Shown piece by piece: positions 9,807 to 33,144 of a stretch of DNA of 64,000 bases (its first letter is position 1; each line of letters opens with the position of its first letter). Made by a program: the position numbers and the translations under genes. Under the pieces are notes generated by a model. That model was not told the DNA's origin. It did no database searches and saw only the letters and a list, made by a program, of their open reading frames with translations. Origin of the DNA: Scatophagus argus (lineage: Eukaryota; Chordata; Actinopteri; Scatophagidae); assembly GCF_020382885.2 (NCBI RefSeq), contig NC_058515.1:4137223-4201222 (forward strand), given 5' to 3'.

Positions 9807-9885
9807 CGCGCTACAGTTGCTGCGATGAGTGAGTTGAATCTCTTTATGTTCTCTCCCCTTCTCTGAGAGGACTATGTTTGACCGG

Positions 9886-9890
9886 CCAAT
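9886..9890 (-). promoter_or_regulatory. CCAAT-type motif, gene B
   Basis: Subfamily-1 form, ACCGGCCAATCAG on the plus strand, about 80 bases before the start codon. A possible weak TATA-like CATAAAG lies between it and the ATG. Confidence 0.5.
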
Positions 9891-9899
9891 CAGATTCTA

Positions 9900-11970
9900 C
9901 GTCTTATTTTGGAAACACTGAAAACATGCTCACTACTGTATGATCACAGTGTTGGTCATTGCATTTATGCACATCTCACTGGTATGCTACGAGACAATTA
10001 TCAATAACAAATGAAAGTTTTATGGATTCACTAACATTTCAGCCAACTAACTAATTAACTTGAAGCTTTAAAATCCACTGGGGTCTACAGTGTGTAAGGT
10101 TTGGCATGTGAAAATGTGTTCATATACAAAATCTACAATGAGAAGAAAATCATGATTTGGACACACAAGTCTGGCTCGACAAAAATAAAATTTTACTTTC
10201 AGTAATATAAAGAAATACAGAAAAACAAATGTGTGCCAAAGTATTGATGAGTAATAAACTGTCACCTCATCACTGTGTGAGCCTCACAACACTTTAAATA
10301 CTTGAGCTGCTCCACACTTGAACGTAGCTCATGTTCCAATCTCCACTTGTTCATTGCAACCAGATACCTTCAGACCATCAGGGGAAGATGAGAAATAAAC
10401 TACATCTGTGTTGTGTATTGTGATTTTTAAAGTTTATAAAAGTAATCTGAGTCATCTCTCCCTCACTCTGTTGTTGCACTCAGACAGGTGTGAAGGTGAG
10501 TTACCACGGTTAAAGAATAGACAGAAAAGATAAAAATAAATCAATGAGTAAATGAATGCAAGTTTTACTTTACACATTTAGAGCATTTCAGAAAACGTGT
10601 TGTGGTTTCCCTTGTTGTGAGACGTTGTGGTTTCAGATTCAGAGTAATAATTCAATGTGCGTCACTAATATACAATACTCATGATTTATTTTTAGCGAGA
10701 AAAAAAATGATTGCATGCAGTGACAAGAGTACAAGAAACTTGAACATCCTTCACTGTCAAGTGATCTTCCGGTTTGACAGCAGTTTCATCAAAGCTGCAC
10801 CCTCAGCTGAAAAATGTCTGGACATCACCCGGGTGGTGCAGATTAGTAGGTCAATACTTGACAAAAGGAGTTGAGAAGCTCTAATTTACCCATTAATCCT
10901 GATTTACAACATCCTCACGGCTTACTGTTAAACTTTTTGCAGTTTCCTACACATTTTAAAGAATGTGTTAGCAACATTAACATGCTGTGTACAAACATTG
11001 CACCTATTTTTACTATCAAACTACTCTACTTTCCTTAAGTTCACTCCAGGAATTTAGTTTGTCACTCACAAGTGACATGTTTAAAGTAACCTTTGTTGCG
11101 TTGCTCTCTGCAGTAGTGGATGAGACTTCCTGACTGAAAGCAAAATATCAGCAGCAGCAGAAGCTGAGGGCACAGGGGAGTGTGCATTGTGGGTTATCTG
11201 TGTTAGGAGGAGGTGTGGAGGTCTGAGCCAAATACACAAATGGAGGACAAGTGACACAAAGTTTTAGGTAACACTTTGGGCTGAAGTTATGTTCACAAAT
11301 CAACAGTAAAATGTGACCAGTCAATGTATACATGACAGAAAAATATGGCTGAAACTCCTCCTGTGGAGGCACATTAGCACAGCATGAAACTCCTACATGT
11401 CCCACAATGCACCTCAGTAGAATGATTTCATTTGACCCTCTGTGCCTGGTAAACACCCACTCGTTTCAAACATGATTAGTTCTGCTCATCAGCAAGCTGA
11501 TATTCACTTTAACTACAACATTAACTATTGTGCCATCTGTTCTTCGACTGAAGTAAAGGATCAAAATACTTGTGTTGTGGACAGGATCTGTAGGTCAGAT
11601 TCAGAGAGAAACTGAGAGTCACTGAGAGACATCCTGCGTGACATCACAGAGACAAAGAACAGACAAGCTCTGACGTGATCTCACTTTACTGTTACCTACA
11701 AAGAAGTTATAAGAAGCTTCTTACAGGTGTGTAGCAGTGGACACAATAAACAACCCAGCCAGATCGTTCTGTGATGACTTCTGTACATACTGTACATGTG
11801 ATGTCACTGACGCAGACTTGGTTCAGTTGTGAAATCTCTTAGAGAGACTAACCCCAGCAGTACACACAGAGGTGTGAATGTATTTCTGTAAACTCTGGAG
11901 ACAAAGAGTAGAGTGTTTCACAGCTGACAAGACATCAAAGAAACTGTAACAAGACTTTGTTTCATTGCAA
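9900..11970. other. Spacer between genes B and C
   Basis: This is nearly identical to 21985-24055, at a constant offset of about 12,085 bases, and marks the tandem duplication. Its 3' half is also related to 37150-37750. Short ORFs are preserved in both copies only because the whole DNA is; I see no gene. Confidence 0.6.
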
Positions 11971-12108: not shown

Positions 12109-14214
12109 CTACTGCTTTACACTGGAGTACACGCATTCAGTATTGGTGTTGCTCCTCTGTCTTCTGGATCTGTCAGTCTTGAGATCCTTTAAAGCAGCAT
12201 AATGAAGGTTCTCTGTGTCTTGACGTAACTGGGAAGAAAATATCAAATGATTCATCCCTCTTACAGCAGATACAGAACAAGAGAGGAAAAACAAAATGAG
12301 TGCTCAGGAATCAATTGTGTGTGCAATAATTAATAGTAATGACTGCCTATAGTATATCTGTGCATCCATGACCAACTAGATTGTTCAAGTCCTGACAAAC
12401 GATGTTTGAAAGTTTAAAGTTTAAACTCTCTATGACACCTGCTGACAGGTGAGGAAAATAAGATAACATTGTGTTAATAAAATTCCTATGTTTTTCCGTT
12501 AGAACTTGACACTTACCGCTGCATTTGTAGAAGAAGCTGAAAATGTCAGGTTAGACTCTGGTTGTGACACACAAAATGAAGGCCATTTTATTTGAGTGCA
12601 ATACACAGTAAAACTTGCTGTCATCTTCAAACAGTAACAGTTACCTGTATATTGGCACTTCCTTTTGTTCATCTTGTACACTGTGAAAGCCAGTAACACA
12701 ACCAGGACGGTGGTGCATGACAAAGCTGCACTCAAGATATACACAAGAGAGTCCACCTCATCTGTGGAGAGGCAGACACCCGGAGACATTATATCCTTAT
12801 GTTTTTTTCTCATCTGGTTTGGGCATTTTGAAATCTTAACACAATACTGACACGACCATTTGTACATTGAAAAACAGGGTCGTCATTCTAATTTCTGCTG
12901 CTGCTCGCTACAAAGAGATCTGTTAATAGACATATTAGTTCAAGTAATTGGGGACAACTCAGCGCGTGTGTGTGCATGGTTAGCCAAAGTGTGTGTGAAC
13001 TGTGAACTCTGTTGTAAACTCTGGTGGTCAGTCAGAATAGAAGAAGTGCAGTATAAATAAAGTCTGTCTATCATTCATATCAGCTTAAACTTTGTATTAT
13101 TAATTTGCACAAGACAAGGACTGCAGATGTTTTATCTCCCACAGTGGAGTTGCATTAGGAAGGAGCTACTTCATGGTCAGTGCAGACACAAAAAATTATT
13201 ATTGTGAGCTGCAATTCATGTTAAAATGTGAGTGACTTATAAATCTGTCTGTTAAGGAGTTTTTGATCAAATGAGATAACTTCTGCTAAAGCAGCTACTC
13301 ACACTTAAAGTCCAGCTTGGTTGCGTCTCCAAACAGTATGTGTCCACATGAGGCAACAGCACAGTAGTAGGTCCCAGCATGAGAAACATTCAGGTTCTTC
13401 ATTGGCAAATTGTAGACACAGGAGTGTGTTTGTGTGTTTTGTTTCCTCTCACACTGATCATTCCTGTCTCCATGAGTATAAATATGTTCTGGATGAGATT
13501 CTCCAGAGTTTTTGAACCAGTAAACACTGTGTTCTCCATCACAGGTCCCATTGTGTACTGTGCAGTTCAGAGTCACAGAGCCTCCTGGCTGGATGGTCTG
13601 CGGTGCTGACTGATGGACCAAAACTGGGATGTTCAGACCTGAACCCTTCACATTTATGGTTGTACCCTCACAAAATTCAAATTCAGTGAAATTGCTCTTT
13701 ATGCAGTAGTAAGTACCTGAGTCTGAAATACGCAAATCTGAAATCTTCAGCTGATATTCATGATTTTCAGTGTCCACTGAGAAACGTGGATTATTAAATT
13801 CATCATAAAAGACCCTGTAAGCATTGTAACTGTAGACTGAAGACACCAGCTTAGGCGTCAGTCCTACAGTTTGCTTATACCAGTAAAAGATTTGTGATAC
13901 CTTATTGAGACAAAAGCATGACAAGGTCACACTTTCCCCAACATCAACTGATAGAAAATGTAATGATGACTGCTTTAAAGCTGTTGTGTGAGCTGAGGAG
14001 AAGATGAAGAAACAAAGCAAACACACATTTAATTAAACTCTAACATGTTTGAATCAGTTGTACTACTGAATAAATGGGCACATATTACAACCAAACATAT
14101 GGTAATAGTATACATTAAAAGGTATAGCAGAGGACAGACAGTAACAAAATACAACTTACCAATATTCACCACAATCAGACAAGCGAAGCACAGAGCAAAG
14201 GTTGGAGGTGCCAT
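12109..14214 (-). CDS. nitr: NITR gene C, inhibitory Ig receptor
   Basis: Predicted 340 residues; exons 14160-14214, 13303-13992, 12645-12761, 12517-12557, 12109-12228. The leader is MAPPTFALCFACLIVVNI, the second leader type of subfamily 1, shared with E and F. The V domain has LSCFCLNKVSQIFYWYKQ and ends TYYCIKSN, with a second cysteine in FCEGTT. The six-cysteine I domain ends FGDATKLDF, where the last glycine of the J-like FGxG motif is replaced. The linker exon is one codon shorter than in A, B, D, F, G and H. The tail has the ITIM LHYAAL (Y311) and CVYSSV (Y335). Gene E is its counterpart in the next tandem unit, yet the V domains differ far more than the surrounding DNA. Confidence 0.9.
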
Positions 14215-14877: not shown

Positions 14878-15228
14878 CATCCATTTTCTGTATCACTTAT
14901 CCGTCAGGGTCGCAAAGGGGGCTGGAGCTTTTCCCAGCTGACTATGGGCAAGAGGCGGGGCTCACTCTGAACTGGTCACAATCGCAGGGCTGATACACAA
15001 AGACAGACAACCACACATGCACACTCACACCTAGGGGCAATGTGGAGTAGCCAATTAACCTAATTTGCATGTTTTTTTCTGGGATTGTGTTAGGAAGCTG
15101 GAGTACCTGGAGAAAACTCATGCAAACCCACGGAGAACATGCAAACTCCACAAGGACCCAGACCGGGATTAGAACCTGGAACCCTGTTGCTGTGAGGCGA
15201 CAGTGCTAACCACTACACCACTGTGCCA
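14878..15228 (-). mobile_element. tRNA-headed SINE
   Basis: A reverse-orientation copy of the element at 35542-35909. The minus strand begins with a tRNA-like head (TGGCACAGTGGTGTAGTGG) and ends in an ATGGATGG-type tail. Short AAAATCCAT direct repeats flank it, though they overlap the tail so the duplication is not certain. The copy in the second tandem unit (27115-27230) has lost its tail half. Confidence 0.75.
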
Positions 15229-15769
15229 CAACAAAATCCATATATGTCTTAAAACAAGCCCAGTCGATGACCACTGGACCTCATCGGCTCGTGTCAGCCC
15301 TGCACATGGGCCCTATGTGCGTGCCATGACTTGTATGGGTATAGAAAAGTTGACTGTCAGCATTTGCTCCACAACGTTGTCTGGTATGAAAGGGGATACT
15401 CAGCTTTTCTGTCTTCAGCTTCTCACCAGTGACAATCTCAGGCTTTCCTTAGTGTTTTGACAGTAAAGCTCTACTGCCTCAAACTATGACTGTCAATGCA
15501 ATTTCTGACCCTTGTTAATTTTTCAGCTCCAATAACTTTTTACATTCATAGCAGCTAAATGCTGGAGAGGAGGGAGGGAGAGAGAGAGAGAGAGTTTAAG
15601 TCTGAACTTAAACTCTGGCCCAGACCTGGACATCTCAACTGTGTCAGCGAGTGAAAAGAACTGAAACCAGTGATGTCCAAAAGAAGCAGGTTCAAAGTAA
15701 AATCCAGAAAAGATGAAGTCTTCGAAAAAGCAAGGGAAAAGCGGAGCTGTGCAGGCAAAATGAAGGGCT
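15229..15769. other. Non-coding repeat-derived spacer
   Basis: Paralogous to 27231-27760. It contains a short AG microsatellite at about 15573-15595 (longer in the second copy). I recognise no gene. It may belong to the retroelement fossil next to it. Confidence 0.35.
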
Positions 15770-16230
15770 GCTCTAATCTACTTCCAAAGTTGGAGGCAGC
15801 GGCAGCCTGCTGAGCTGACGGGAGTTTAAGGCAATGAAGTGACTTGATCTTTCAACAAGTGTGAGTATAACAGTATTACCTTTTGAAGATGCCAAACCAG
15901 AGATACCATGGTGAGACAGTATAGGGGAGGGACTAAGTAGACCCACTAAAGGATGACGAAAGGCCTTGTTTAGGCACAGATAGGAACAGACAGAGACATA
16001 TTCCTTAGTGTTGCTGTTCATGGAAGGCCACCAGAGGCGCTGCTTTCGGGAGACTGAGAATACAGGAAACCCGAGGATGACAGGCATGTGGACCCACTGC
16101 AGAACCATGGAACATGCAGAATACAGAACGTATAGTTTCCCAGGTGGGCCATTACCATGATCTGAGTTCAGATGTTGAGCCTCTTTAACCACTGACTCAA
16201 CTAAAATTGCCCATCCATGACCATTGTGAG
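15770..16230 (-). mobile_element. Ty3/Gypsy-like pol fossil (integrase part)
   Basis: The minus-strand reading resembles the zinc-binding to core transition of a Gypsy-type integrase (around WWPSMNSNTKEYVSVCS, then GNTVILTLV). It is a short, isolated and broken fragment; no flanking terminal repeats are recognised. It predates the tandem duplication, since a shortened copy lies at 27760-28018. Confidence 0.6.
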
Positions 16231-16364
16231 GGGACAAATGAACGCTTGACAAACCTCCTTTTTCTCTGCTTTGAATATCTATATTAAAATAATGCTGATA
16301 TGACCATCTGTACATTGAAAGAGCTGTTGGCTATTCTGATTGTTGCTGCTGTTCGTTACAATGT

Positions 16365-17290
16365 GATCAGAGTCAGAATTCCTTTATTTCTCCCAGAGGG
16401 GAAATTCTTTTTCGTACAGACATTGCAATTTTCCAAGAAAGAAAGTGAAAAATATATAACAGGATAAAACTAAAATAAGTATAAAATATAAAAATATCAG
16501 GTATATAAATGTAAAATATCAGTTATTTACATTTATAGGTCTGTGCATTTATACATTTCCAGGGAAGAGTATGTGTGTCTGTTACAGTACAGAGTTCAAT
16601 AGTTTGATGGCAACAGACAGGAATGATTTCCTGTGTCGCTCTGTGGTGTACCGTGGGAATAAGAGTCTCTGACTGAATGAGCTCCTGTAGCTGATTAGCA
16701 CATTGCGGAGAGGGTGAGAGGGGAAGTCCAGTATATTCCTTATTTTGGACAACATCCTCCTCCCAGACACCACTTTCAGAGAGTCCAGTTCCTGATGACT
16801 CTGTTGAGTCTGTTAGTGTCCCTCACCCTCAGGCAGCTGCCCCAGCAGGCAACAGCTTATGTGATGGCACTGGACACCACCGACTCATAGAACATCCTCA
16901 GCATCGTCCTGCAGATGTTGAAGGACCTCAGTCGCCTCAGAAAATAGAGGCGGCTCTGGCCCTTTCTGTAGACCATGTCCACGTTCTTGAACCAGTCCAG
17001 TTTGTGATCCAAGTACACCCCTAAGTACTTGTACTAGTCTTCCACCACCTCCACAGTGGTCCTGCTTCAAGTGACAAGGTTGTACACTACAGCCCTGTAC
17101 TCTCTCTCATCACCTCCAGTAATACATCCAACCACTGCAGAGTCATCAGAAAATTCCTGAAGATGGCAGGTTTCTGTGCAGTGCTTGAAGCCTGTGGTGT
17201 AGATGGTGAAGAGGAAGAGACAGAGGACAGTCCCCTGTGGAGCCCCGGTGTTGCTGGTCACTCTGTCTGACATGCAGCACTTTAGGCGAT
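16365..17290 (-). mobile_element. L2-like LINE 3' part
   Basis: Read on the minus strand it runs from the reverse transcriptase catalytic region (GAPQGT, then FSDDSAVVGC, an F-x-D-D box) through the C-terminal region to a 3' tail at about 16370-16440. It is 5'-truncated and has frame breaks. It sits inside the decayed NITR intron. In the second tandem unit only 28020-28345 of it remains. Confidence 0.75.
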
Positions 17291-17569
17291 TATTTAATAA
17301 AGCATTTTCAATGCATATAATTGTAGACAAGACTGCATGTGTGTGTGCATGTTTACTGCTCATGATGAGTGGACATGAAAGTATGTGTGAACTGGGGAAT
17401 GCTGTTTTCTGTTGTAAAGCATTTTGAGTGATCAGTGAGACTAGAAGAAGCACAGTATAAATACAATCCATTTATCATTCATGTCAGCTTAAACGTTGGA
17501 ACACAAATTTACACACTAAAAGGACTGTAGATGTTTCCTCTTCCACAGTGGAGCTGTGTAGTGAGGTTA

Positions 17570-18260
17570 TGAATGCAACCAGGAAGTTCAGCAAGACTCC
17601 TCCTAGCTCCTCCCCCTGCTCAGGTGCAGCATAAAAGGATCCAGCTGGCTCAGTTTCTCCCTTTTGCTGGTCTGTGATGGTGGCTGCTGTGCTGTTGAGT
17701 CTGTTTGGTTTTCCTTTTTATATTATTTCTTTCCTTTTGGACCAGTTTTCATCTGTTTTAGCCTCATTTGTGCTGTTTTGATTTCTTTTGAGTGCTTTTG
17801 TTTCACTTTGGCAAGTTTTTGCTTGCTGTGTTTATTTGTTGGGGTTTTGATTTGTTCATCTGGTTTGCTTAATTTAAGTATATTTGTTAATTCCTTGATT
17901 TGAGTTTGTATGTTTATTTTGGGATAATGTTTATCAATTGGGTTGTTGGTTTTGTTGGATTTTGTTAACCTTTTGTTTTCCAGGCAGCTTGTTTATATCA
18001 TTGGTTTTCTTTCAGAGTAAAACAACCTCTTTATTTTGTATTGTGTTTGCATTTTCCTTTTTTTCCAGCAGTTTCCATCCTTTGTTGTTGTGGCTTTAGC
18101 TTTGATTAAATTGCAGTGTTTCAATTAAATTTATTTACTTTACCGAATCTACTGTCTCTGCCTCCTCAGTCTTGAACCGGCGTCCTCTGTAGATTCCTTA
18201 TTTATTATACTTCTAGATTTTCACATCCTGGGGTGCAAGTCCCCAGGTGGTGTTGTCAGC
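17570..18260. repeat. T-rich dispersed repeat
   Basis: Strongly T-rich on the plus strand, with no reliable coding content. Copied at 28600-29300. It interrupts the decayed NITR, so it is an insertion; the class is not recognised (a solo LTR is possible but unproven). Confidence 0.45.
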
Positions 18261-18789
18261 TCTTAAATTTAGCTGAAAATTTCAAATTAAACCAGCACTC
18301 CTTGCCACAGCTGCATTAGAAAGGAATTACTTGATAAGTTAGTGCAGACATGAGTAATTATTATAGTGAGCAGTAATTCATGTTAGTATTTGAGTATTAT
18401 TTTATGAAAGGCTTACAAGTGTGTCAGTTATTTATTTTAATTTTATTTTATTTTTTTTATCAAATGCAAAACTATGCTACAGCAATTAATCACACAGGGT
18501 CCAACTTGGTCTTGTGTCCAAATAGTAGATGTGCACATGAGGTAGCAGCACAGTAGTGCAGTAGTTGGCAACTTTTAGACACAAGTGTGTTTGTCTGTTT
18601 CTCTCACTGATTGTTCCTGCCCCCATGGGTTGAAAAAAAAAGTCCTCAATGAGGTTCTTAAGAGTATTTGAACCAGTCAAAATGTGTTTGCCACCACAGG
18701 TCACAGTGTGTCCTGGGGCCTGTGTCAGCTGCAGCCTGACATTCTTGTAATTAGACCCGACCACTGCTAAGCAACTTTTTGGCCAAGTT

Positions 18790-18890
18790 CAACCTACCCA
18801 CTTTTGCACTGACAAGCAGTGTTCCCCAAAAAGAAACTGTGGTTCATCAGCAACGTGTAAGATGCTCACAGGAGAAAACACTCAAGATGT
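18790..18890 (+). mobile_element. L2-like LINE scrap
   Basis: Matches 29790-29873, the start of a longer L2-like fragment in the second unit. Here it stops at AAAACAC, which recurs at the far end of the longer copy, suggesting a deletion at a short direct repeat. Confidence 0.5.
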
Positions 18891-19540
18891 AAGCTAAGTG
18901 AAGACCTTATTTCAAGGGGTTTAACAAAAGTGTGGCATTAACCATTCAGGAAGCCATTTTTATGCACCCACCCCATTTTTGGCGGCTCGTAAATCATGGA
19001 ATCAACTAACATAATTGCAAATATAAGGCTTGTTTTTAATACTTGGAGGAAATCCTTTGCTATGAATGACTGCCTGAAATCTGGAACCCACAGAGATGAT
19101 CAGTTGCTGAGTTTTCTCCTTTAAGATGCTTTGGTAAAGATTAAATTAAATTATTAAATAAAGAATGACTTACTTACTTACTTCACGTCTGAAACGGCAG
19201 AGACAAAGAACAGAAAGGCTCTGACATGTCCTTACTTTACTGTTACCTACAAAGTAGTTTTAAGAAGCTTCTTACAGGTTTGTGACAATGTACACCATAA
19301 ACAACCTGGAAAGAAAGCTTTGATACTTTGTGATACCCTGTGGGTGTACATACACCTGATGTCACTTATGCAGGATTGGTTCAGTTGTGGAAATTCTAGA
19401 GAAGGTAATCCCAGCAGCACTTCAGAGGTGTGAGTGTGTTTCTTTGAAATGTGAGGAGAAACGGGAGAAGTCAGCAGATGTTTCACAACTGGTATCACTA
19501 CAGAGAAACCCTCCGACACCATACTTTCTTTCACTGCAAG

Positions 19541-19546
19541 TTTATT
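19541..19546 (-). promoter_or_regulatory. Poly(A) signal, gene D
   Basis: AATAAA on the minus strand about 80 bases past the stop codon. Confidence 0.5.
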
Positions 19547-19624
19547 ACAAGGGAAGACTTTATATGTAATAAAATAAATAAATTGATTGAATCAAATTGA
19601 AAAAGGACAAAAACACATCTGGGT

Positions 19625-21890
19625 CTACTGCTTTACACTGGAGTACACACATTCGTTATTGGTGTTGCTCCTCTGTCTTCTGGATCTGTTGACGTTGAGG
19701 TCACCTAAAGCAGCATAATGAAGGTTTTCTGCATCTTGACACACCTGATATGAAATAAATAAATAAATAAAAGAATTCATTGGTATCAGAACAGATACAG
19801 CAAGAAAAGATGTGTATGGAACACAGCAAGCTTCATATAGAGAAAAACAAAATGAATGAGCTGAAATGAATCGTGTGTGCAATAATTAATAATAATGATG
19901 CCCCCAAACAGACATTGAATCTGTGTATCTGTGACCAATTAAATTGTCCATATCCTGACTTCTGACTGCTAGCAGCCAAAGCTGACCCATAATGCTGAAA
20001 CGATGTTTCACAGCATAAATTACTCCCTGTGACATCTGATGACAGGCAAAAAAAATTAATGTTGTCCTTTTAAAATTCCTTTACTTTTTCAATAGAAAAT
20101 GACACTTACCGCTGCATTTGGAGCAGAAGCTGTTGAAAATGTCACATTAGACTCTGGTTGTGACACACAAAATGAAGGTTATTTTATTTAAATCTAACAC
20201 ACTCTGTCATCTAACAACTCTAACAACTGCTGTCATCTTCAAACAGTAACAGTTACCTGTATATTGGCAGTTCCTTTTGCTAAACTTGTACACTGTGAAA
20301 GCCAGTAACACAACCAGGATGGTGGTGAATGACAAAGCTGCACTCAAGATATACACAGGAGAGACAAGAGAGTCCACCTCATCTGTGGAGAGGCAGACAG
20401 CAGACATTACAGGAGATATTATATTATATGGCTATTTTTATTTTTATTTTTTTATGTTATTATTATGAAAACAATACGACACGACCATTTGTATGTTGAA
20501 AGATAGGTTTGTCATTCTAATTTTTGCTGCTGCTTGCTACAAAGAGATCCCTGTATAAAGCCATATCAGTTCAAGTAATGGGGGTCGAGTGTGCATGTGT
20601 GTGTGCATGGTTACTGCTCATGATGAGCAGCCATGAAAGTGTGTGCGAACTGTTGAATTCCGATGTAAAGTGTTTTGAGTGGTCAGTCAGAATAGAAGAA
20701 GTGCAGTATAAATAAAGTCTGTCTATCATTCATATGAGCTTAAACTTTGGATTATTAATTTGCACAAGACAAGGACTGCAGATGTTTTATCTCCCACAGT
20801 GGAGTTGCATTAGGAAGGAGCTACTTCATGGTCAGTGCAGACACAAAAAATTATTATTGTGAGCTGCAATTCATGTTAAAATGTGAGCATCATAATTGAA
20901 GTAGACTTACAAATCTGTCTGTTAAGGAGTTTTTGATCAAATAAGACAACCTCTGTTAGAACAGCTACTCACACTTAAAGTCCAGCTTGGTCCCATTTCC
21001 AAACAGTATGTGTCCACATGAGGCAACAGCACAGTAGTAGGTCCCAGCATGAGAAACATTCAGGTTCTCCATTGTCAAATTGTAAGCACAGGAGTGTGTT
21101 TGTGCGCTGGGTTTCCTCTCACACTGACCTTTCCTGCCTCCGTGGGTGTAAATGAGTCCTGGAGGAGATTCTCCAGAGTTTTTGAACCAGTAAACACTGT
21201 GTTCTTCATCACAGGTCCCATTGTGTACTGTACAGTTCAGAGTCACAGAGCCTCCTGGCTGGATGGTCTGCGGTGCTGACTGATGGACCAAGACTGGGAT
21301 TTTCAGTTCTGATCCCTTTACGGTGATGGTTATGCCCTCACAAAATTCAAGTTCATTTAGATTGCTCCCTATACAGTAGTAAGTACCTGAGTCTGAAATA
21401 CGCAAATCTGAAATCTTCAGCCGATATTTACGATTTTCAGTGTCCACTGAGAAACGTGGATTCTTAAATTCATCATGAAGAGTGCTGTCAGCATTATAAC
21501 TGTAGAGTGAAGACACCAGCTTTGGGTTCAGTCCTGCAGTTTGCTTATACCAGTGAAAGATCACTGATTCATCATCAGGACAGGAGCAGGACAAAGTGAC
21601 GCTTTCCCCAACATTGGCTGATAGAAAATGTAATGATGACTGCTTTAAAGCTGTTGTGTGAGCTGAGGAGAAGATGAAGACATGAAGACAATACACATTT
21701 AAATCAATTCTTACATGTTATAATGAGCTGCACAATGTAATTCACGAACACACGAAAAGCAAACATATGGTTATAGTATATAATAATAACATTTTTTGTA
21801 TCGTAAGCAATAGTCCTTAACAAAATACAACTTACCCATATTCACCACCAACAGACACGTGAAGCACAAAGCAAAGTTTGGAGGTGCCAT
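19625..21890 (-). CDS. nitr: NITR gene D, chimeric head and tail
   Basis: Predicted 344 residues; exons 21836-21890, 20973-21662, 20257-20382, 20110-20153, 19625-19744. The promoter, leader and V+I exon match gene B almost base for base (V: LSCSCPDDESVIFHWYKQ, I: FGNGTKLDF). The stalk/membrane, linker and tail exons match gene F instead (tail VCQDAENLHYAALGDL, ITIM Y315, second motif Y339). The switch lies in the last bases of exon 2: up to about 20977 the sequence is F-like, from about 20991 B-like. Smaller F-like patches occur within the I domain. The stalk carries a three-residue insert (SLVSPVYIL against SLVYIL in A and C). The gene reads as the product of unequal crossing-over. It looks fully functional. 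Confidence 0.9.
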
Positions 21891-21969
21891 CGCGCTACAG
21901 TTGCTGCGATGAGTGAGTTGAATCTTTTTATGTTCTCTCCCCTTCTCTGAGAGGACTGTGTTTGACTGG

Positions 21970-21974
21970 CCAAT
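21970..21974 (-). promoter_or_regulatory. CCAAT-type motif, gene D
   Basis: Subfamily-1 form, GACTGGCCAATCAG on the plus strand. Confidence 0.5.
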
Positions 21975-21984
21975 CAGATTCTAC

Positions 21985-24055
21985 GTCTTATTTTGGAAAC
22001 ACTGAAAACATGCTCACTACTGTATGATCACAGTGTTGGTCATTACATTTATGCACATCTCGCTGGTATGCTACGCGACAATTATCAATAACAAATGAAA
22101 GTTTTATGGATTCACTAACATTTCAGCCAACTAACTAATTAACTTGAAGCTTTAAAATCCACTGGGGTCTACAGTGTGTAAGGTTTGGCATGTGAAAATG
22201 TGTTCATATACAAAATCTACAATGAGAAGAAAATCATGATTTGGACACACAAGTCTGGCTCGACAAAAGTAAAATTTTACTTTCAATAATATAAAGAAAT
22301 ACAGAAAAACAAATGTGTGCCAAAATAGTGATGAGTAATAAACTGTCACCTCATCACTGTGTAAGCCTCACTACACTTTAAATACTTGAGTTGCTCCACA
22401 CTTGAACGTAGCTCATGTTCCAATCTCCACTTGTTCATTGCAACCAGATACCTTCAGACCATCAGGGGGAAGATGAGAAATAAACTACATCTGTGTTGTG
22501 TATTGTGATTTTTACAGTTTATAAAAGTAATCTGAGTCATCTCTCCCTCACTCTGTTGTTGCACTCAGACAGGTGTGAGGGTGAGTTACCACGGTTAAAG
22601 AATAGACAGAAAAGATAAAAATAAATCAATGAATAAATGAATGCAAATTTTACTTTACACATTTAGAGCATTTCAGAAAACGTGTTGTGGTTTCTCTTGT
22701 TGTGAAACGTTGTGGTTTCAGATTCAGAGTAATAATTCAATGTGCGTCACTAATATACAATACTCATGATTTATTTTTAGCGAGAAAAAAAATGATTGCA
22801 TGCAGTGACAAGAGTACAAGAAACTTGAACATCCTTCACTGTCAAGTGATCTTCCGGTTTGACAGCAGTTTCATCAAAGCTGCACCCTCAGCTGAAAAAT
22901 GTCTGGACATCACCCGGGTGGTGCAGATTAGTAGGTCAATACTTGACAAAAGGAGGTGAGAAGCTCTAATTTACCCATTAATCCTGATTTACAACATCCT
23001 CACGGCTTACTGTTAAACTTTTTGCAGTTTCCTACACATTTTAAAGAATGTGTTAGCAACATTAACATGCTGTGTACAAACATTGCACCTATTTTTACTA
23101 TCAAACTACTCTACTTTCCTTAAGTTCACTCCAGGAATTTAGTTTGTCACTCACAAGTGACATGTTTAAAGTAACCTTTGTTGCATTGCTCTCTGCAGTA
23201 ATAGATGAGACTTCCTGACTGAAAGCAAAATATCAGCAGCAGCAGAAGCTGAGGGCACAGGGGAGTGTGCATTGTGGGTTATCTGTGTTAGGAGGAGGTG
23301 TGGAGGTCAGAGCCAAATACACAAATGGAGGACAAGTGACACAAAGTTTAAGGTAACACTTTGGGCTGAAGTTATGTTCACAAATCAACAGTAAAATGTG
23401 ACCAGTCAATGTATACATGACAGAAAAATATGGCTGAAACTCCTCCTGTGGAGGCACATTAGCACAGCATGAAACTCCTACATGTCCCACAATGCACCTC
23501 AGTAGAATGATTTCATTTGACCCTCTGTGCCTGGTAAACACCCACTCGTTTCAAACATGATTAGTTCTGCTCATCAGCAAGCTGATATTCACTTTAACTA
23601 CAACATTAACTATTGTGCCATCTGTTCTTTGACTGAAGTAAAGGATCAAAATACTTGTGTTGTGGACAGGATCTGTAGGTCAGATTCAGAGAGAAACTGA
23701 GTGTCACTGAGAGACATCCTGCGTGACATCACAGAGACAAAGAACAGACAAGCTCTGACATGATCTCACTTTATTGTTACCTACAAAGTGATTATAAGAA
23801 GCTTCTTACAGGTCTGTAGCAGTGGACACAATAAACAACCCGGCCAGATCGTTCTGTGATGACTTCTGTACATACTGTACATGTGATGTCACTGACGCAG
23901 ACTTGGTTCAGTTGTGAAATCTCTTAGAGAGACTAACCCCAGCAGTGCACACAGAGGTGTGAATGTATTTCTGTAAACTCTGGAGACAAAGAGTAGAGTG
24001 TTTCACAGCTGACAAGACATCAAAGAAACTGTAACAAGACTTTGTTTCATTGCAA
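21985..24055. other. Spacer between genes D and E
   Basis: Tandem copy of 9900-11970 with only scattered base differences by eye. No gene seen. Confidence 0.6.
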
Positions 24056-24056
24056 G

Positions 24057-24062
24057 TTTATT
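24057..24062 (-). promoter_or_regulatory. Poly(A) signal, gene E
   Basis: AATAAA on the minus strand about 130 bases past the stop, at the position equivalent to gene C. Confidence 0.55.
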
Positions 24063-24192
24063 GTACGTCAAGTTTTTATATTCATTGAAATTGGTGGAAA
24101 GATTTTAGGTGTTCATATTTCATTACAATTCTAAATAGCCTAACAAAAAATATCTTGTTATACAGAAACAAAGCAAAGAAACACGTCCAGGT

Positions 24193-26643
24193 CTATTGCT
24201 TTACACTGGAGTACATGCATTCATCATTGGTGTTGCTCCTCTGTCTTCTGGATCTGTCAGTCTTGAGATCCTTTAAAGCAGCATAATGAAGGTTCTCTGT
24301 GTCTTGACGTAACTGGGAAGAAAATATCAAATGATTCATCCCTCTTACAGCAGATACAGAACAAGAGAGGAAAAACAAAATGACTGCCTATAGTATATCT
24401 ACGCATATATAACTAACTAGATTGTCCAAGTCCTGACAAACGATGTTTGAAAGCTTAAATTACTCTCTATGACACCTGCCGACAGGTGAGGAAAATAAGA
24501 TAACATTGTGTTAATAAAATTCCTATGTTTTTCCATTAGAACTTGACACTTACCGCTGCATTTGTAGAAGAAGCTGAAAATGTCACGTTAGACTCTGGTT
24601 GTGACACACAAAATGAAAGCCATTTTATTTGAGTGCAATACACAGTAAAACTTGCTGTCATCTTCAAACAGTAACAGTTACCTGTATATTGGCAGTTCCT
24701 TTTGTTCATCTTGTACACAGTGAAAGCCAGTAGCACAACCAGGATGGTGGTGAATGACAAAGCTGCACTCAAGATATACACAAGAGAGACAAGAGAGTCC
24801 ACCTCGTCTGTGGAGAGGCAGACACCAGGAGACATTACAGGAGACATTACATTCTTATGTTTTTTTCTCATCTGCTTTGGGTATTTTGATCTTAAAATAA
24901 TGCTGGTATGACCATTTGTACATTGAAAGACAGGTTCGTCATTCTAATTTTCGCTACAAAGAGATCCCTTAATAAAGCCATGTCAGCTCAAGTAACTGGG
25001 GACAACTCTGTGCGTGTGTGTGCATGGTTACTGCTCATGATGAGCGGACATGAAAGTGTGTGTGAACTGGCGAATTCTGTTGAGTGGTCAGTCTGACTAG
25101 AAGAATTACAGTATAAATGAAATGCACAAGAGAATCCACTTCATCTGTCAGGAGGCAGACACCAGAAGACATTACACAGTTCATATGTGTTTTCTAATCT
25201 GGTTTGTTATCTATCTTAAAAGAATTCTGGCTTGACTATTTGATACACTGAAAGAGATGGTGTCAGTCTAAATTTTGCTTCTGATCACTACAAATATATC
25301 CCTTCACAAAGCATTTTCAGTGCGAGTAATGGGTGTCTGTGTGTGCACGGTTACTGTTCATGATGAGCCGGCATGAACGTGTGTGTGTGAACTGATGAAT
25401 GCTGACCTTTGCTGTAAAGAGCTTTGAGTGGTCAGTCAGACTAGAAGTATCAGCTGTATCAAACGGACTAGCAGTCCATTTACAATTCATATGAGCTTAA
25501 ACTTGGGACAACAAATTTGCACAAAACAAGGACTGTAGATGTTTTAGTGTCCACACTGGAGTTGCATTAGGAAGGAGCTACTTCATGGTCAGAGCAGATA
25601 TGAGTAAGAATTATAGTTAGCAGTAAATCATTTTAGCATGTGTTTACTATATTAAGGTAGACTTACAAACATGTCTGTTCGGGAGTTATTTATCGAAGAA
25701 GACAACCTAAAACAGTTACTCACAGTCAACGTCTAACTTAGTCCAGTCGCTAAACAGAATATGTCCACATGAGGCAACAGCACAGGAGTAGGTCCCAGCA
25801 TGAGAAACATTCAGGTTCTTCATTGGCAAGCTGTAGACACAGGAGTGTGTTTGTGTGCTGGGATTCCTCTCACACTGATCATTCCTGCCTCCACGGGTGT
25901 AAATGAGTCCTGGATGAGATTCTCCAGAGTTTTTGAACCAGTAAACACTGTGTTCTCCATCACAGGTCCCAGTGTGTACTGTACAGTTCAGAGTCACAGA
26001 GCCTCCTGGCTGGATGGTCTCCGATGCTGACTGATGGACCAAAACTGGGGTTTTCAGTTCTGATCCCTTTACGGTGATGGTTGTGCCCTCACAAAATTCA
26101 AAAGAATAGAACTTGTTCTTTATGCAGTAGTAAGTACCTGAGTCTGAAATTTGCAAATCTGAAATCTTCAGCTGATATTCATGATTTTCAGTGTGCACTG
26201 AGAAACGTGGATTCTTAAATTCATCATGAAGGGTGATGTTGCCATCATAACTGGCGAATGAAGACACCAGCTTTGGGGTGAATCCCACAGTTTCCTTATA
26301 CCAGTAAAAAGTTAGTGATCCCTTATCAAGACAGAAACACGACAAATTCACACTTTGTCCAACATCAACTGACAGAAAATGTAATGATGACTGCTTTAAA
26401 GCTGTTGTGTGAGCTGAGGAGAAGATAAAGAAACAAAGCAAACACACATTTAATTAAATTCATTCAACTGAAAATGTTGGAATGAGCTGTACTGCAGAAT
26501 AAATGAACACACATTACAACCAAACATATGGTAATAGTATACATTAAAAGGTATAGCAGAGGACAGACAGTAACAAAATACAACTTACCAATATTCACCA
26601 CAATCAGACAAGCAAAGACCAGAGCAAAGGTTGGAGGTGCCAT
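24193..26643 (-). CDS. nitr: NITR gene E, inhibitory Ig receptor
   Basis: Predicted 343 residues; exons 26589-26643, 25724-26413, 24682-24807, 24554-24594, 24193-24312. Leader and tail are those of gene C (tail LRQDTENLHYAALKDL, ITIM Y314, second motif CMYSSV at Y338). The V domain departs strongly from C (LSCFCLDKGSLTFYWYKE, then TYYCIKNKFYSFEF). The I domain ends FSDWTKLDV, the most eroded J-like strand in the cluster, having lost both glycines. The stalk has the three-residue insert absent from C. Intron 2 is longer than in C because of a local duplication that carries a scrap of a second exon 3 (25125-25145). Splice sites and frame are intact. Confidence 0.9.
25125..25145 (-). pseudogene. 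Exon 3 scrap inside intron 2 of gene E
   Basis: The minus strand shows an acceptor-like CTGACAG followed by ATGAAGTGGATTCTCTTGTG, the start of a NITR stalk exon, then the match ends. The sequence to its right (25150-25450) repeats the intron 2 sequence at 24830-25100, so a piece of exon 3 plus intron 2 was duplicated locally and then decayed. Confidence 0.65.
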
Positions 26644-26722
26644 GTCACTTCAGATGCTGCTATGAGTGAGCTGAATCTCTCTATGTTCTCTCCTCTTCAC
26701 TGAGAGGACTGTGTTTGACCGG

Positions 26723-26727
26723 CCAAT
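26723..26727 (-). promoter_or_regulatory. CCAAT-type motif, gene E
   Basis: Subfamily-1 form, same position as in gene C. Confidence 0.5.
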
Positions 26728-27114
26728 CAGATTGAATGTCTTATTTTGGAAACGCTGAACACATGTTCAGTGATCTGCAACACGACAATGCTGGTCTTTA
26801 CATTTCTCTCTGGTGTGCTAAGAGACAAATATTAATAACAAAAGATAGTATTATGTAAAAAGACACTCACACTTAGATCTAACTTTAAGCTAAATTATCC
26901 ACTGAGGTCTACAGTGGGCAAAATCTGCCATGTGAGAGTCTTTTCACATAGATACATACCTATCTACAGTGAGGAGGGAATCATTTTCATGATTAAGACA
27001 AAGACACTCTGCAAAGAAAGAAAAAAATTCAATAAAATCTGACTTTCAAAACCAGTGAAATGCATATAATACATGTACTCAATACTATAATATGCCAACA
27101 GATGTTGAACTCAC

Positions 27115-27230
27115 ACAAGAACAGGGAGAACATGCAAACTCCACACAGAAGGACCCAGACCAGGATTAGAACCTGGAACCCTGTTGTTGCAAGGCAGCAG
27201 TGCTAACCACTACACCACTGTGCTGCAACA
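27115..27230 (-). mobile_element. SINE remnant
   Basis: Counterpart of the SINE at 14878-15228; the tRNA-like head survives and the tail half is deleted. Confidence 0.65.
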
Positions 27231-27759
27231 ATATGTCTTAAAACAAGCCCAGTCGATTTCCGCTGGACCTCATCGGCTCGTGTCAGCCCTGCACATGGGC
27301 CCTATGTGCGTGCCATGACTTGTATGGGTATAGAAAAGTTGACTGTCAGCATTTGCTCCACAACGTTGTCTGGTATAAAAGGGGATACTCAGCTTTTCTG
27401 TCTTCAGCTTCCCACCAGTGACAATCTCAGGCTTTCCTTAGTGTTTTGACAGTAAAGCTCTACTGCCTCAAACTATGACTGTCAATGCAATTTCTGACCC
27501 TTGTTAATTTTTCAACTACAATAACTTTTTACATTCATAGCAGCTAAATGCTGGAGAGAAGGAGAGAGAGAGAGAGAGAGAGAGAGTTTAAGTCTGAACT
27601 TAAACTTTGGCCCAGACCTGGACATCTCAACTGTGTCAGCGAGTGAAAAGAACTGAAACCAGTGATGTCCAAAAGAGGCAGGTTCAAAGTAAAATCCAGA
27701 AAAGATGAAGTCTTTGAAAAAGCAAGGGAAAAGCGGAGCTGTGCAGGCAAAATGAAGGG

Positions 27760-28018
27760 CTGCTCTAATCTACTTCCAAAGTTGGAGGCAGCGGCAGCCT
27801 GCTGAGCTGACGGGAGTTTAAGGCAATGAAGTGACTCGATCTTTCAACAAGTGTGAGTATAACAGTATTACCTTTTGAAGATGGCAAACCAGAGATACCA
27901 TGGTGAGACAGTACAGGGGAGGGACTAAGTAGACCCACTAAAGGACGATGAGAGGCCTTTTTTAGGCACAGATAGAACAGACAGAGACATATTTCTTAGT
28001 GTTGCTGTTCATGGCTAT
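27760..28018 (-). mobile_element. Ty3/Gypsy-like pol fossil, second copy
   Basis: Duplicate of the integrase fragment at 15770-16230, broken and shorter. Confidence 0.5.
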
Positions 28019-28019
28019 T

Positions 28020-28345
28020 TCACTGTGTCCACGTTCTTGCACCAGTCCCGATTGTGGTCCAAGTACACCCCTAAGTACTTGTACTACTCTTCCACCACCT
28101 CCACAGTGGTCCTGCTTCAAGTGACAAGGTTGTACACTACAGCCCCGTACTCTCTCTCATCAACTCCAGTAATACATCCAACCACTGCAGAGTCATCAGA
28201 AAATTCCTGAAGATGGCAGGTTTCTGTGCAGTGCTTGAAGCCTGTGGTGTAGATGGTGAAGAGGAAGGGACAGAGGACAGTCCCCTGTGGAGCCCTGGTG
28301 TTGCTGGTCACTCTGTCTGACATGCAGCACTTTAGGCGATCCTTT
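28020..28345 (-). mobile_element. L2-like LINE fragment, second copy
   Basis: Counterpart of 16965-17290. About 0.94 kb present in the first unit (16030-16970, covering the rest of the LINE and part of the Gypsy fossil) is absent here, by a deletion whose ends abut at 28018-28025. Confidence 0.7.
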
Positions 28346-29765
28346 AATAAAGCATTTTCAATGCATATAATTGTAGATAAGACTGCATGTGTGTGCATGT
28401 TTACTGCTCATGATGAGTGGACATGAAAGTATGTGTGAACTGGGGAATGCTGTTTTCTGTTGTAAAGCATTTTGAGTGATCAGTGAGACTAGAAGAAGCA
28501 CAGTATAAATACAGTCCATTTATCATTCATGTCAGCTTAAACTTTGGAACACAAATTTACACACTAAAAGGACTGTAGATGTTTCCTCGTCCACAGTGGA
28601 GTTGTGCAGTGAGGTTATGAATGCAACCAGGAAGTTCAGCAAGACTCCTCCAGGCTCCTCCCCCTGCTCAGGTGCAGCATAAAAGGATCCAGCTGGTTCA
28701 GTTTCCCCCTTTGCTGGTCTGTGATGGTGGCTGCTGTGCTGTTGAGTCTGTTTGGTTTTCCTTTTTATATTATTTATTTCCTTTTGGACCAGATTTCATC
28801 AGTTTTAGCCTCATTTGTGTTGTTTTGATTTCTTTTTAGTGCTTTTGTTTCACTTTGGCCAGTTTTTGCTTGCTGTGTTTATTTGTTGGGGTTTTGATTT
28901 GTTCATCTGGTCCAACTCTGTTTGCTTAATTTAAGTATATTTGTTAATTCCTTGATTTGAGTTTGTATGTTTATTTTGGGATAATGTTTATCAATTGGGT
29001 TGTTGGTTTTGTTAACCTTTTGTTTTCCGGGCAGCTTGTTTATATCATTGGTTTTCTTTCAGAGTAAAACAACCTCTTTATTTTGTATTGTGTTTGCATT
29101 TTCCTTTTTTTCCAGCAGTTTCCATCCTTTGTTGTTGTGGCTTTAGCTTTGATTAATTTGCAGTGTTTCAATTAAATTTATTTACTTTATCGAATTTACT
29201 GTCTCTGCCTCCTCAGTCTTGAACCGGCGTCCTCTGTAGATTCCTCATTTATTATACTTCTAGATTTTCACATCCTGAGGTGCAAGTCCCCAGGTGGTGT
29301 TGTCAGCTCTTAAATTTAGCTGAAAATTTCAAATTAAACCAGCACTCCTTGCCACAGCTGCATTAGAAAGGAATTACTTGAAAAGTCAGTGCAGACATGA
29401 GTAATTATTATAGTGAGCAGTAATTCATGTTAGTATTTGAGTATGATTTTATAAAAGGCTTACAAGTGTGTCAGTTAAGTTTTTTTTTTTTGTTTTTTTT
29501 TAATCAAATGCAAAACTATGCTACAACAGTTAATCACACAAGGTCCAACTTGGTCTTGCGTCCAAATAGCAGGTGTGCACATGAGGTAGCAGCACAGTAT
29601 TAGGTCACACACTGATCATTCTTGCCTCCATGGGTGTTAAAAAAAAAAAGTCCTCAATATTTGAACCAGTCGAAAGTGTGTTTGCCACCACAGGTCACAG
29701 TGTGTCCTGGGGCCTGTGTCAGTTTCAGCCTGACGTTCTTGTAATTAGACCTGACCACTGTTAAG
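28346..29765 (-). pseudogene. Decayed NITR copy between E and F
   Basis: Second copy of the relic at 16235-18775: intron 2 sequence at 28346-28590, the exon 2-adjacent intron at 29310-29520, and I-domain remains at 29521-29760 (further shortened around 29600). It is interrupted by the T-rich repeat. Not coding. Confidence 0.65.
28600..29300. repeat. T-rich dispersed repeat, second copy
   Basis: Counterpart of 17570-18260 with small indels. Confidence 0.45.
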
Positions 29766-29789
29766 CAACTTTTTGGCCAAGTTCAACCA

Positions 29790-30135
29790 ACCCATTTTGC
29801 ACTGACAAGCAGTGTTCCCCAAAAAGAAACTGTGGTTCATCAGCGATGTGTAAGATGCTCACAGGAGAAAACACCTCCCATAATAGGTGGAAAGGCATCA
29901 GAAACATCAGGGGTTGTAAACAAGTGCTTTCCCTTCTCTGCCCATTTTGAAAACAGCAACAACAAGGGAAGGAACCGGTTGCAACCATCACTGTACAAGA
30001 GAGTGACCATACTCTCACTCTTCAGTCTTTTCAGGTCAACAAAGCCCTCCAGTGTGGCAGCTGTAACAAGGCAGCTGGGCCTTCCGGTGTTCCTGGCCAA
30101 GCGTTTGGCCTCTGTGCACCACCACCATGAATTTG
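29790..30135 (+). mobile_element. L2-like LINE 5' reverse-transcriptase fragment
   Basis: Plus-strand readings resemble the segment leading into the reverse transcriptase of L2-type elements (RKASETSG, then NKCFPFSAHFENSN, then a shifted AAGP-like stretch). It is degraded, with frame breaks. The first-unit copy has lost about 265 bases of it. Confidence 0.5.
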
Positions 30136-30806: not shown

Positions 30807-30884
30807 ACAAGGGAAGACTTTATATGTAATAAAATAAATAAATTGATTGAATCAAATTGAAAAAGGAAAAAAACACATCTGGGT

Positions 30885-33144
30885 CTACTGCTTTACACTG
30901 GAGTACACACATTCACTATTGGTGTTGCTCCTCTGTCTTCTGGATCTGTTGACGTTGAGGTCACCTAAAGCAGCATAATGAAGGTTTTCTGCATCTTGAC
31001 ACACCTGGTATAAAAGAAATAAATAAATAAAATGATTCATTGGTATCAGAACAGATAAATCACAAAAAGATGTGTATGGAACACAGCAAGTTTCATATAG
31101 AGAAAAACAAAATGAATGCGCTGAAATGAATCGCGTGTGCAATAATTAATAATAATGATGCCCCCAAACAGACAGTGAATCTGTGTATCTGTGACTAATT
31201 AAATTGTCCATATCCTGACTTCTGACTGCTAGCAGCCAAAGCTGACCCATATTGCTGAAACGATGTTTCACAGCATAAATTACTCTCTGTGACATCTGCT
31301 GACAGGTGAAGAAAATAATGTTGTGCTTTTAAAATTACTTTACTTTTCAATAGAAAATGACACTTACCGCTGCATTTGGAGCAGAAGCTGTTGAAAATGT
31401 CACATTAGACTCTGGTTGTGACACACAAAATGAAGGTTATTTTATTTAAATCTAACACACTCTGTCATCTAACAACTGTAACAACTGCTGTCATCTTCAA
31501 ACAGTAACAGTTACCTGTATATTGGCAGTTCCTTTTGCTAAACTTGTACACTGTGAAAGCCAGTAACACAACCAGGACGATGGTGAATGACAAAGCTGCA
31601 CTCAAGATATACACAAGAGAGACAAGAGAGTCCACCTCATCTGTGGAGAGGCAGACAGCAGACATTACAGGAGATATTATATTATATGGCTATTTTTATT
31701 TTTTTTTTTTTAAATTTTATTATTATTAAAACAGTACTGCCATGACCATTTGTACGTTGAAAGAGAGGTTTGTCATTCTAATTTTTGCTGCTGCTCGCTA
31801 CAAAGAGATCCCTGTATAAAGCCATATCAGTTCAAGTAATGGGGGTCAAGTGTGCATGTGTGTGTGCATGGTTACTGCTCATGATGAGCAGCCATGAAAG
31901 TGTGTGTGAACTGTTGAATTCTGTTGTAAAGTGTTTTGAGTGGTCAGTCAGAATAGAAGAAGTGCAGTATAAATAAAGTCTGTCTATCATTCATATCAGC
32001 TTAAACTTTGTATTATTAATTTGCACAAGACAAGGACTGCAGATGTTTTATCTCCCACAGTGGAGTTGCATTAGGAAGGAACTACTTCATGGTCAGTGCA
32101 GACACAAAAAATTATTGTGAGCTGCAATTCATGTTAAAATGTGAGCATCATAATTGAAGTAGACTTACAAATCTGTCTGTTCAGGAGTTATTGATCAAAT
32201 AAGACAACCTCTGTTAGAACAGCTACTCACACTTAAAGTCCAGCTTGGTTGCGTCTCCAAACAGTATGTGTCCACATGAGGCAACAGCACAGTAGTAGGT
32301 CCCAGCATGAGAAACATTTAGGCTCTCCATTGTCAAATTGTAAGCACAGGAGTGTGTTTGTGCGCTGGGTCTCCTCTCACACTGACCTTTCCTGCCTCCA
32401 TGGGTGTAAATGAGTCCTGGATGAGATTCTCCAGAGTTTTTGAACCAGTAAACACTGTGTTCTCCATCACAGGTCCCAGTGTGTACTGTGCAGTTCAGAG
32501 TCACAGAGCCTCCTGGCTGGATGGTCTTCGATGCTGACTGATGGACCAAAGCTGGGATGTTCAGACCTGAACCCTTCACATTTATAGTTGTGCTCTCACA
32601 AAATTCAAAGACAATGTAACTTTTCTTTATGCAGTAGTAAGTACCTGAGTCTGAAATTTGCAAATCTGAAATCTTCAGCTGATATTCATGATTAACAGTG
32701 TCCACTGAGAAACGTGGATTCTTAAATTCATCATGAAGAGTGCTGTTAGCATTATAACTGGTGAATGAAGACACCATCTTGGGCATCCGTCCTACAGTTT
32801 GTTTATACCAGTAAAAGCTTTGTGATACCTCATCGAGACAAAAGCATGACAGGGTCACACTTTCCCCAACATCAACTGATAGAAAATGTAATGATGACTG
32901 CTTTAAAGCTGTTGTGTGAGCTGAGGAGAAGATGAAGAAACAAAGCAAACACACATTTAATTAAACTCTAACATGTTGGAATGAGCTGCAGAATAAATGA
33001 GCACATATTACAAGCAAACATATGGTAATAGTATGTATAAAAAAGGTTATCGTATCATAGATGACAGACAGTAACAAAATACAACTTACCAATATTCACC
33101 ACAATCAGACAAGCGAAGCACAGAGCAAAGGTTGGAGGTGCCAT
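30885..33144 (-). CDS. nitr: NITR gene F, inhibitory Ig receptor
   Basis: Predicted 344 residues; exons 33090-33144, 32231-32920, 31515-31640, 31368-31411, 30885-31004. The 5' end is of the C/E type (leader MAPPTFALCFACLIVVNI, V with SVDVGESVTLSCFCLDEVS). Exons 3-5 are of the D type (tail VCQDAENLHYAALGDL, ITIM Y315, CVYSSV Y339). It is therefore a third head/tail combination. The I domain ends FGDATKLDF as in C, but its middle (QCERRPSAQTHSCAYNLTM) resembles B and D, so the exon itself looks mosaic. The stalk has the three-residue insert (SLVSLVYIL). Splice sites are all standard. Confidence 0.9.

Follow-up and report, generated by a model that had tools for sequence, protein, structure and literature searches.

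Our analysis indicates that gene D, an intact five-exon gene on the minus strand (19625-21890), is a hybrid of two receptor types that occur in the same array. It combines a promoter, a leader and a V-I exon of the type found in gene B with an intron 2, transmembrane exon and ITIM exons of the type found in gene F, which we label P. The two types meet within the 15 bases AAAGTCCAGCTTGGT at 20977-20991, which are common to B, D and F. With moderate confidence we suggest that D arose when a P-type gene and B underwent unequal crossover, and that the products would later have been partly overwritten by gene conversion.

Coordinates are those of the window, the whole 64,000-nucleotide stretch that was analysed (C23:4137223-4201222, in a genome of 570.7 Mb and 48 contigs), and negative values lie to its left. 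The window is a section of a fish immunoglobulin-type receptor gene cluster, and the genes found there are all on the minus strand. Among the exon-2 matches listed for the genome, 31 of 33 fall on C23 (4099050-4235905) and two on C12. We added flanks to the window (C23 4095001-4137500 and 4201001-4241000), giving a total of 146 kb that contains no N. In the gene and exon scan of this stretch, overlapping matches were reduced to the best one and those with E > 0.05 were dropped (0.5 for the leader), while the search for tail exons took minus-strand matches with E < 20. Genes of the same subtype are g1-g7, left of the window, and A-G inside it, with more distant genes further right; mosaicism was examined in these 14 genes, leaving out those from H rightward. 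The exon-2 3′ ends of g1 to g7 lie at approximately -35000, -29140, -24320, -17272, -12507, -6217 and -1528. Exon 2 is open in all 14 genes and 690 bases long in 13 of them (684 in g1), and every one has an ITIM-bearing last exon, with the motif LHYAAL except in B (LYYAAL). Near the left end of the array a V and an I sequence, NITR-like but more distant, lie together on the plus strand (-38912 to -37913).

Besides the P-type genes (g6, g7, F and the left half of D), we distinguish middle-type genes, labelled M (g3, g5, C and E), and an intergenic repeat, ig, that precedes the M gene in four units (22843-24084 in the copy next to D). The units are U1 (B-ig-C-X-D) and U2 (D-ig-E-Y-F) in the window, and to its left a third copy, U0 (g4-ig-g5-Y0-g6), and the start of a fourth, U-1 (g2-ig-g3); the homology of ig with U0 and U-1 starts at 22843. 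The X block (15115-18881) and the Y block (27108-29874) each contain the remnant of a decayed NITR-like pseudogene with stops or missing parts (17.3-18.7 and 28.3-29.7 kb), and further ones lie at 51.7-52.4, 68.9-69.5, 75.8-76.2 and 82.1-82.7 kb.

The junction in gene D and its parent types

One parent type is represented by exon 2, leader, promoter and upstream region of B (8887-10757, minus strand), the other by F (30888-33144, minus strand), whose two halves are both of P type, as are those of g6. When F and B were taken as parents and D as the recombinant, there were 607 informative sites, 392 F-like to four B-like on the left, a count that is partly non-homology and so inflated because B is hardly alignable with D there (K2P 0.93 over 258 sites past the initial ~30 bases of intron 2), and seven F-like to 204 B-like on the right; none of 20,000 permutations was as extreme. 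Plotted along D, the diagnostic sites give a single switch and no even alternation. The original prediction had placed this switch within the 15 shared bases, and the flanking sites agree with it exactly: F-type sites run up to 20976 and B-type sites start at 20992, so that the recombination junction spans 20976-20992 (minus strand). The 15 identical bases encode TKLDF, part of a J-like motif with which the I domain ends. At 20992-20997 the difference between F and the B type is not peculiar to F, since g6 and g7 share its reading GDATKLDF, in contrast to GNGTKLDF in D and B. When B was replaced as parent by G, which aligns throughout, the counts were 413:26 on the left and 60:125 on the right (0 of 20,000 permutations), with the best break shifted to 21112-21113 because the I domain of G is A-like rather than B-like.

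Trees of the 14 genes conflict across the junction. On the left, D groups with F (100/99), then with g6 and then g7; on the right it groups with B (100/99) and then with G (91/95). Forcing D together with F on the right was rejected (p-AU 7e-40), as was forcing it together with B on the left (p-AU 0.006, with a B row there that is long and 46% filled). Sites and trees together thus bear out the view that D is B-like from its promoter to the end of exon 2 and F-like in its tail. The left arm of D, comprising 3′ flank, tail and intron 2 (18876-20975), has a K2P of 0.042 to F and 0.059 to g6, and the right side of D a K2P of 0.20 to F. Over 20992-23758, D together with the sequence upstream of it corresponds to B and the sequence upstream of B, with 44 differences in 2765 positions up to an estimated change point. 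One switch from one parent type to the other, at corresponding places in the two genes, is expected of a crossover hybrid and is found in D.

F was considered as the recombinant and rejected, since g6, which lies outside the window, has the F type in both halves (K2P between F and g6 of 0.056 on the left and 0.047 over V, leader and promoter); the control triple with g6 and B as parents of F gave no break (3037 of 20,000 permutations). Because g6 matches F in both halves, D is the recombinant and F keeps the older combination. For the right arm, transfer from B to D and from D to B fit equally, because the 3′ half of B itself (8283-8880, minus strand, with the ITIM LYYAAL) has no close counterpart among the matches listed for the 146 kb, where the best long match is 67.6% over 581 columns and short exon matches reach 76.8% over 151 columns.

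The exchange, at the 3′ end of the V-I exon, would have been ectopic, a homologous recombination between copies that had paired out of register. The I domains of B and F are ~96% identical (K2P 0.045) and coincide without a mismatch for 63 and for 67 bases, those of B and g6 for up to 127, whereas over V, leader and promoter the K2P between B and F or g6 is 0.18-0.19, and intron 2 can hardly be aligned. The I-domain coding block, ~96% identical between B and F/g6, is therefore the likely site of pairing. It could be objected that the junction is an artefact of assembly, in which two haplotypes were set in tandem through a false join inside a conserved exon, as such a false duplication would yield the identical order B-C-X-hybrid-E-Y-F. 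We consider this very improbable: the genome is in as few as 48 contigs, nearly all exon-2 matches listed fall on C23, the 146 kb is free of N, and at the join B, D and F share 15 identical bases, the nearest longer run between B and F being 63. Long-read overlaps far exceed 15 or 63 bases.

Structure and predicted product of gene D

All five exons of D are on the minus strand. Exon 1 (21836-21890) encodes the leader and is B-type; exon 2 (20973-21662, 690 bases) encodes the V and I domains and is B-type except for its last four bases (20973-20976); exon 3 (20257-20382, transmembrane) and exon 4 (20110-20153, cytoplasmic) are F-type; and exon 5 (19625-19744), of F/g6 type, carries the ITIM LHYAAL, a second motif VYSSV and the stop. 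The frame is open, as had been anticipated of an in-frame hybrid receptor, all four introns have GT/AG ends, and the predicted product of 344 amino acids has the layout leader, V, I, transmembrane and ITIM tail. D had also been called functional; this is a predicted status and refers to open frames and splice sites only.

Exon 2 encodes a V-set domain and a second immunoglobulin domain in one frame, and D matches the V-set profile (9.2e-30, with two stretches) as well as other immunoglobulin models. With leader and transmembrane exons both located, the layout is that of a type I transmembrane protein. V and I share a single exon, as in NITRs, and the I domain has six cysteines in 105 residues, as in the portion of PMC2442602 that describes this domain. 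It ends, in D and B, in the J-like motif FGNGTKLDF, which departs from the consensus FGXGTXLXV in its final V, replaced by F; F, g6 and g7 carry the variant FGDATKLDF. The transmembrane stretch of D, a hydrophobic stretch read by eye, has no charged residue, which together with the ITIM LHYAAL corresponds to the inhibitory class of NITR. Judged by its match to described NITR features, D is a NITR-type gene of inhibitory layout. A phmmer search against solved structures, with antibody-type chains among the best 60 of 11,979 matches, was of no help for identity. In exon 3 of B (8653-8769) an arginine (FWRAV) lies at the outer edge of the transmembrane stretch, alongside the ITIM, and a related FWRG is found at 51746-51853.

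D would thus present the ectodomain of B, under the promoter of B, on the tail of F. Because both the B and the F tails carry an ITIM, the sign of signalling is probably still inhibitory; D may differ from B in what docks to the tail, since the second motif, next to the ITIM LYYAAL in B, is VYYSA in B and VYSSV in D. Exon 2 of B and D differs by 11 nonsynonymous and no synonymous changes, two of the 11 in the codon left of the junction, and D and F differ by three nonsynonymous and no synonymous changes in the transmembrane exon and by one of each in the last exon. These coding differences between B and D and between D and F give no clear sign of constraint, and selection as a proof of the function of D was dropped, the exon-2 differences between B and D being too few to decide.

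One event or several in the history of the units

If a P-type gene and B recombined by unequal crossover, the direct outcome would be the order B-M-hybrid-M-P, which explains why D lies directly before the second ig-M-Y-P unit. The unit sizes originally proposed, about 12.1 and 11.3 kb, agree with the offsets in our alignment (12,086 and 11,265). B-type upstream sequence joined to ig is seen only before C and E, whereas U0 and U-1 have g4/g2-type sequence at that place, and this fits the duplication of a unit starting in B. The third unit, U0, has the order gene-M-Y-P without a hybrid.

If a single crossover had produced everything, however, there should be one divergence along the unit, and U1 and U2 should be nearest relatives throughout. 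The B/D right arm with the intergenic region has 57 differences in 3158 positions (1.8%), compared with 84 in 2087 for the D/F left arm and 105 in 2735 for X/Y (both ~4%). The B/D arm differs from both the D/F arm and X/Y (Fisher P 1.9e-6 and 2.0e-6), and these two do not differ from each other (P 0.76). U1 and U2 are thus not evenly diverged copies that are nearest to each other, a pattern which later conversion could have erased.

We also counted changes unique to U0, U1 or U2, with differences of one kind within 10 bases merged as events. For ig 22843-23600 the counts are 18, 3 and 2, so that U1 and U2 are close there. They are 7, 12 and 5 in the M tail, 11, 14 and 3 in Ya (uneven, P 0.03), 11, 22 and 20 in Yb, and 35, 30 and 29 in the D/F left arm, and these four regions pooled give a star-like 64, 78 and 57 (equality P 0.18), the pool leaving out the exon-2 half of E and C, on account of the tract in C described below, and ig 23601-24084 (4, 2 and 7; P 0.23). 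The pooled regions thus give no evidence that U1 and U2 are more closely related to one another than either is to U0, and in Yb U2 is nearer to U0 (K2P 0.025) than to U1 (0.040). The uneven unit, the pooled star-like pattern and the closeness of U2 and U0 in Yb all count against the crossover history. On the other side, unmerged counts in the D/F left arm place D with F (69, versus 44 and 40), an excess that comes partly from clusters such as 30817-30861, where g6 differs; these counts, together with the left tree and its full support for D with F over g6, favor the crossover model.

One clean, one-time duplication is rejected by the unequal divergence of the arms and the pooled star-like units. 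Of the unequal crossover between B and F in the original prediction, the hybrid D and the role of F as a parent stand, and U0 keeps a hybrid-free order; a single event making everything in between is not supported, given the uneven arms and pooled counts in which U1 and U2 are not closest.

Gene conversion alone is a serious rival, and one that we hold possible though short of probable. It supposes that the ig-M-Y-P units already stood in tandem and that the P-type 5′ half of D was replaced by a tract of ~2.8 kb from B, comprising promoter, leader, V-I exon, upstream region and the start of ig. Divergence between U1 and U2 has a change point at 23758, from 44 in 2765 (1.6%) to 37 in 1047 (3.5%), so that the similarity of B and D is two-ended, with a sharp left end (20976-20992) and a right end near 23758 of modest support (13 of 500 permutations were as good). 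Ending there, it resembles a conversion tract and counts against the crossover, and the star-like remainder of the pooled units and the two-ended tract in C likewise suit conversion alone. However, conversion alone leaves the tandem join between the position of D and the second unit unexplained; its tract would span ~1.5 kb where B and P-type genes have K2P of at least 0.18 or are hardly alignable; and of a former P-type 5′ half before E no trace is seen beyond short matches of 78-89% between the D-E region and the regions upstream of F and g6. Patchy conversion within the B/D arm was tried and rejected, the differences showing no significant clustering (P 0.08 for dispersion and 0.27 for the longest clean stretch).

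Alternatively, one recent unequal crossover might have joined two old, divergent haplotypes, U1 coming from one and U2 from the other, so that uneven divergence would be old allelic divergence and later conversion unnecessary. One event would then cover the 0.4-2% of the B/D arm, the ~4% elsewhere and the 15% between C and E in exon 2, and herring regions bearing NITRs are reported, in the part of PMC11088111 that concerns them, to be highly diverse and variable in copy number. We nevertheless regard this as improbable, for an allelic divergence of 4-15% would equal that between paralogous units.

We thus return to a crossover followed by conversion. The later conversions would have affected the stretch shared by B and D, which runs from the junction to ~23.76 kb, the pair E and g5, and the exon-2 half of C, and conversion after the crossover would explain both the 1.6% stretch between B and D and the star-like rest. 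That conversion-like exchange is found elsewhere in the array, in the two-ended tract of C and the 98.3% identity of E and g5, counts in favor of this overwriting step. In C, part of intron 2, exon 2 and part of intron 1 (13003-14083, minus strand) are P-type, like F, g6 and g7, in a gene that is M-type on both sides, and the tract is probably a gene conversion. In E, intron 2, exon 2 and promoter (24814-27108, minus strand) are 98.3% identical to g5 (-13423 to -11129), far closer than C is to E. The exon-2 halves of C and E have a K2P of 0.15, while the tails and promoters of both are M-type; the earlier reading of C and E as the duplicated middle therefore holds for tails and promoters but not for the exon-2 halves. 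E as a plain copy of C was rejected, its exon-2 half being g5-like and C having the P-type tract. Part of the exon-3 region is also repeated within intron 2 of E (24789-25106 versus 25126-25450, 70%). For the X and Y blocks and this repeat, alignments of at least 120 columns were taken; for the unit copies, E-g5 and the 3′ half of B, those of at least 150 columns, the best 16 per query.

Like C with its tract, three further genes have switches with 0 of 20,000 permutations as extreme. In g7 (about -2660 to -600) the switch from A/G-type to g6-type is near -2424, and the last exon is of A/G type and the 3′ flank of G type, whereas the sequence from transmembrane exon to promoter is g6-type, which makes this another hybrid tail. 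G (39474-40392), with its switch at 39792-39793 between I and V, is A-like in most of the tail and the I domain and B/D-like in V; nonsynonymous V-domain differences number four for B-D, 12 for D-G and 13 for B-G, with no synonymous difference in any pair. The third gene, g3, switches at -23683 toward g1. Thus, at least five of the 14 genes (C, g7, G, g3 and D) look mosaic.

The 15 permutation triples were picked after inspection of similarity patterns rather than by a full scan. Twelve gave 0 of 20,000; the others were g6 and B to F (3037), C and g5 to E (195), and D and G to B (3). The signals of D and g6 to F and of D and G to F (both 0 of 20,000) would make F itself a recombinant, but we read them as mirroring the switch in D, a recombinant having been used as parent. 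The triple F and C to D, also 0 of 20,000, put the break at 21158-21221, C being itself mosaic, and the parents D, B and F in the triples for G and C may themselves be mosaics.

It would be tempting to see the 3′ end of the V-I exon, where the coding sequence is nearly the same throughout the cluster, as a standing exchange point of the NITR array, through which promoter, leader and V-I exon would pass as whole cassettes from one tail to another in the germ line. We consider this doubtful, but if it were true, receptor specificity and signalling tail would evolve as separable modules.

Comparison with known receptor families

Those parts of PMC2442602 that describe the NITRs of pufferfish and medaka (chromosomes 18 and 21) present a clustered multigene family with V and I in one exon, and D shares with these teleost NITRs the single V-I exon, the six-cysteine I domain, the J-like motif, the transmembrane exon, the two cytoplasmic exons and the ITIM. 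In the main text of that paper, words beginning with recombination, conversion, tandem or hybrid are absent. Zebrafish NITRs are treated, with a KIR reference, in a portion of PMC1193534. A limited literature search found no description of a hybrid NITR gene. The NITR cluster of European sea bass is reportedly the subject of Ferraresso et al. 2009.

D carries a warning for such arrays generally. Since the third unit, U0, reveals different histories for the middle of the duplication, the clean pattern of B on the right and F on the left does not by itself prove a single crossover, and a clean two-parent pattern is insufficient evidence of one.

The closest parallel is provided by the KIR genes, for which passages of PMC3606631 and PMC7516082 describe arrays whose haplotypes expand and contract by ectopic recombination, and fusion genes in which the binding part comes from one gene and the tail from a second, such as 3DL1/L2, 2DP1/L1 and 2DS2/S3 in primates. 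As in the NITR array, KIR genes are dense, head-to-tail immunoglobulin-type NK receptor genes, and, as in D, a short, highly similar segment amid diverged sequence can be the site of exchange. In contrast, the KIR breakpoints given there lie in introns, often in transposable elements, whereas the switch in D is in coding sequence, in the J-like motif of the V-I exon; and the KIR hybrids were described from typed individuals and haplotypes, D from one genome. D, whose parent types, junction and sister units all lie within one 146-kb stretch, is a real case of germ-line receptor shuffling of a kind already known in other immune-receptor families, and provides a base-level example of the shuffling of ectodomain and tail in fish NK-type receptors, parallel to the KIR fusion genes.
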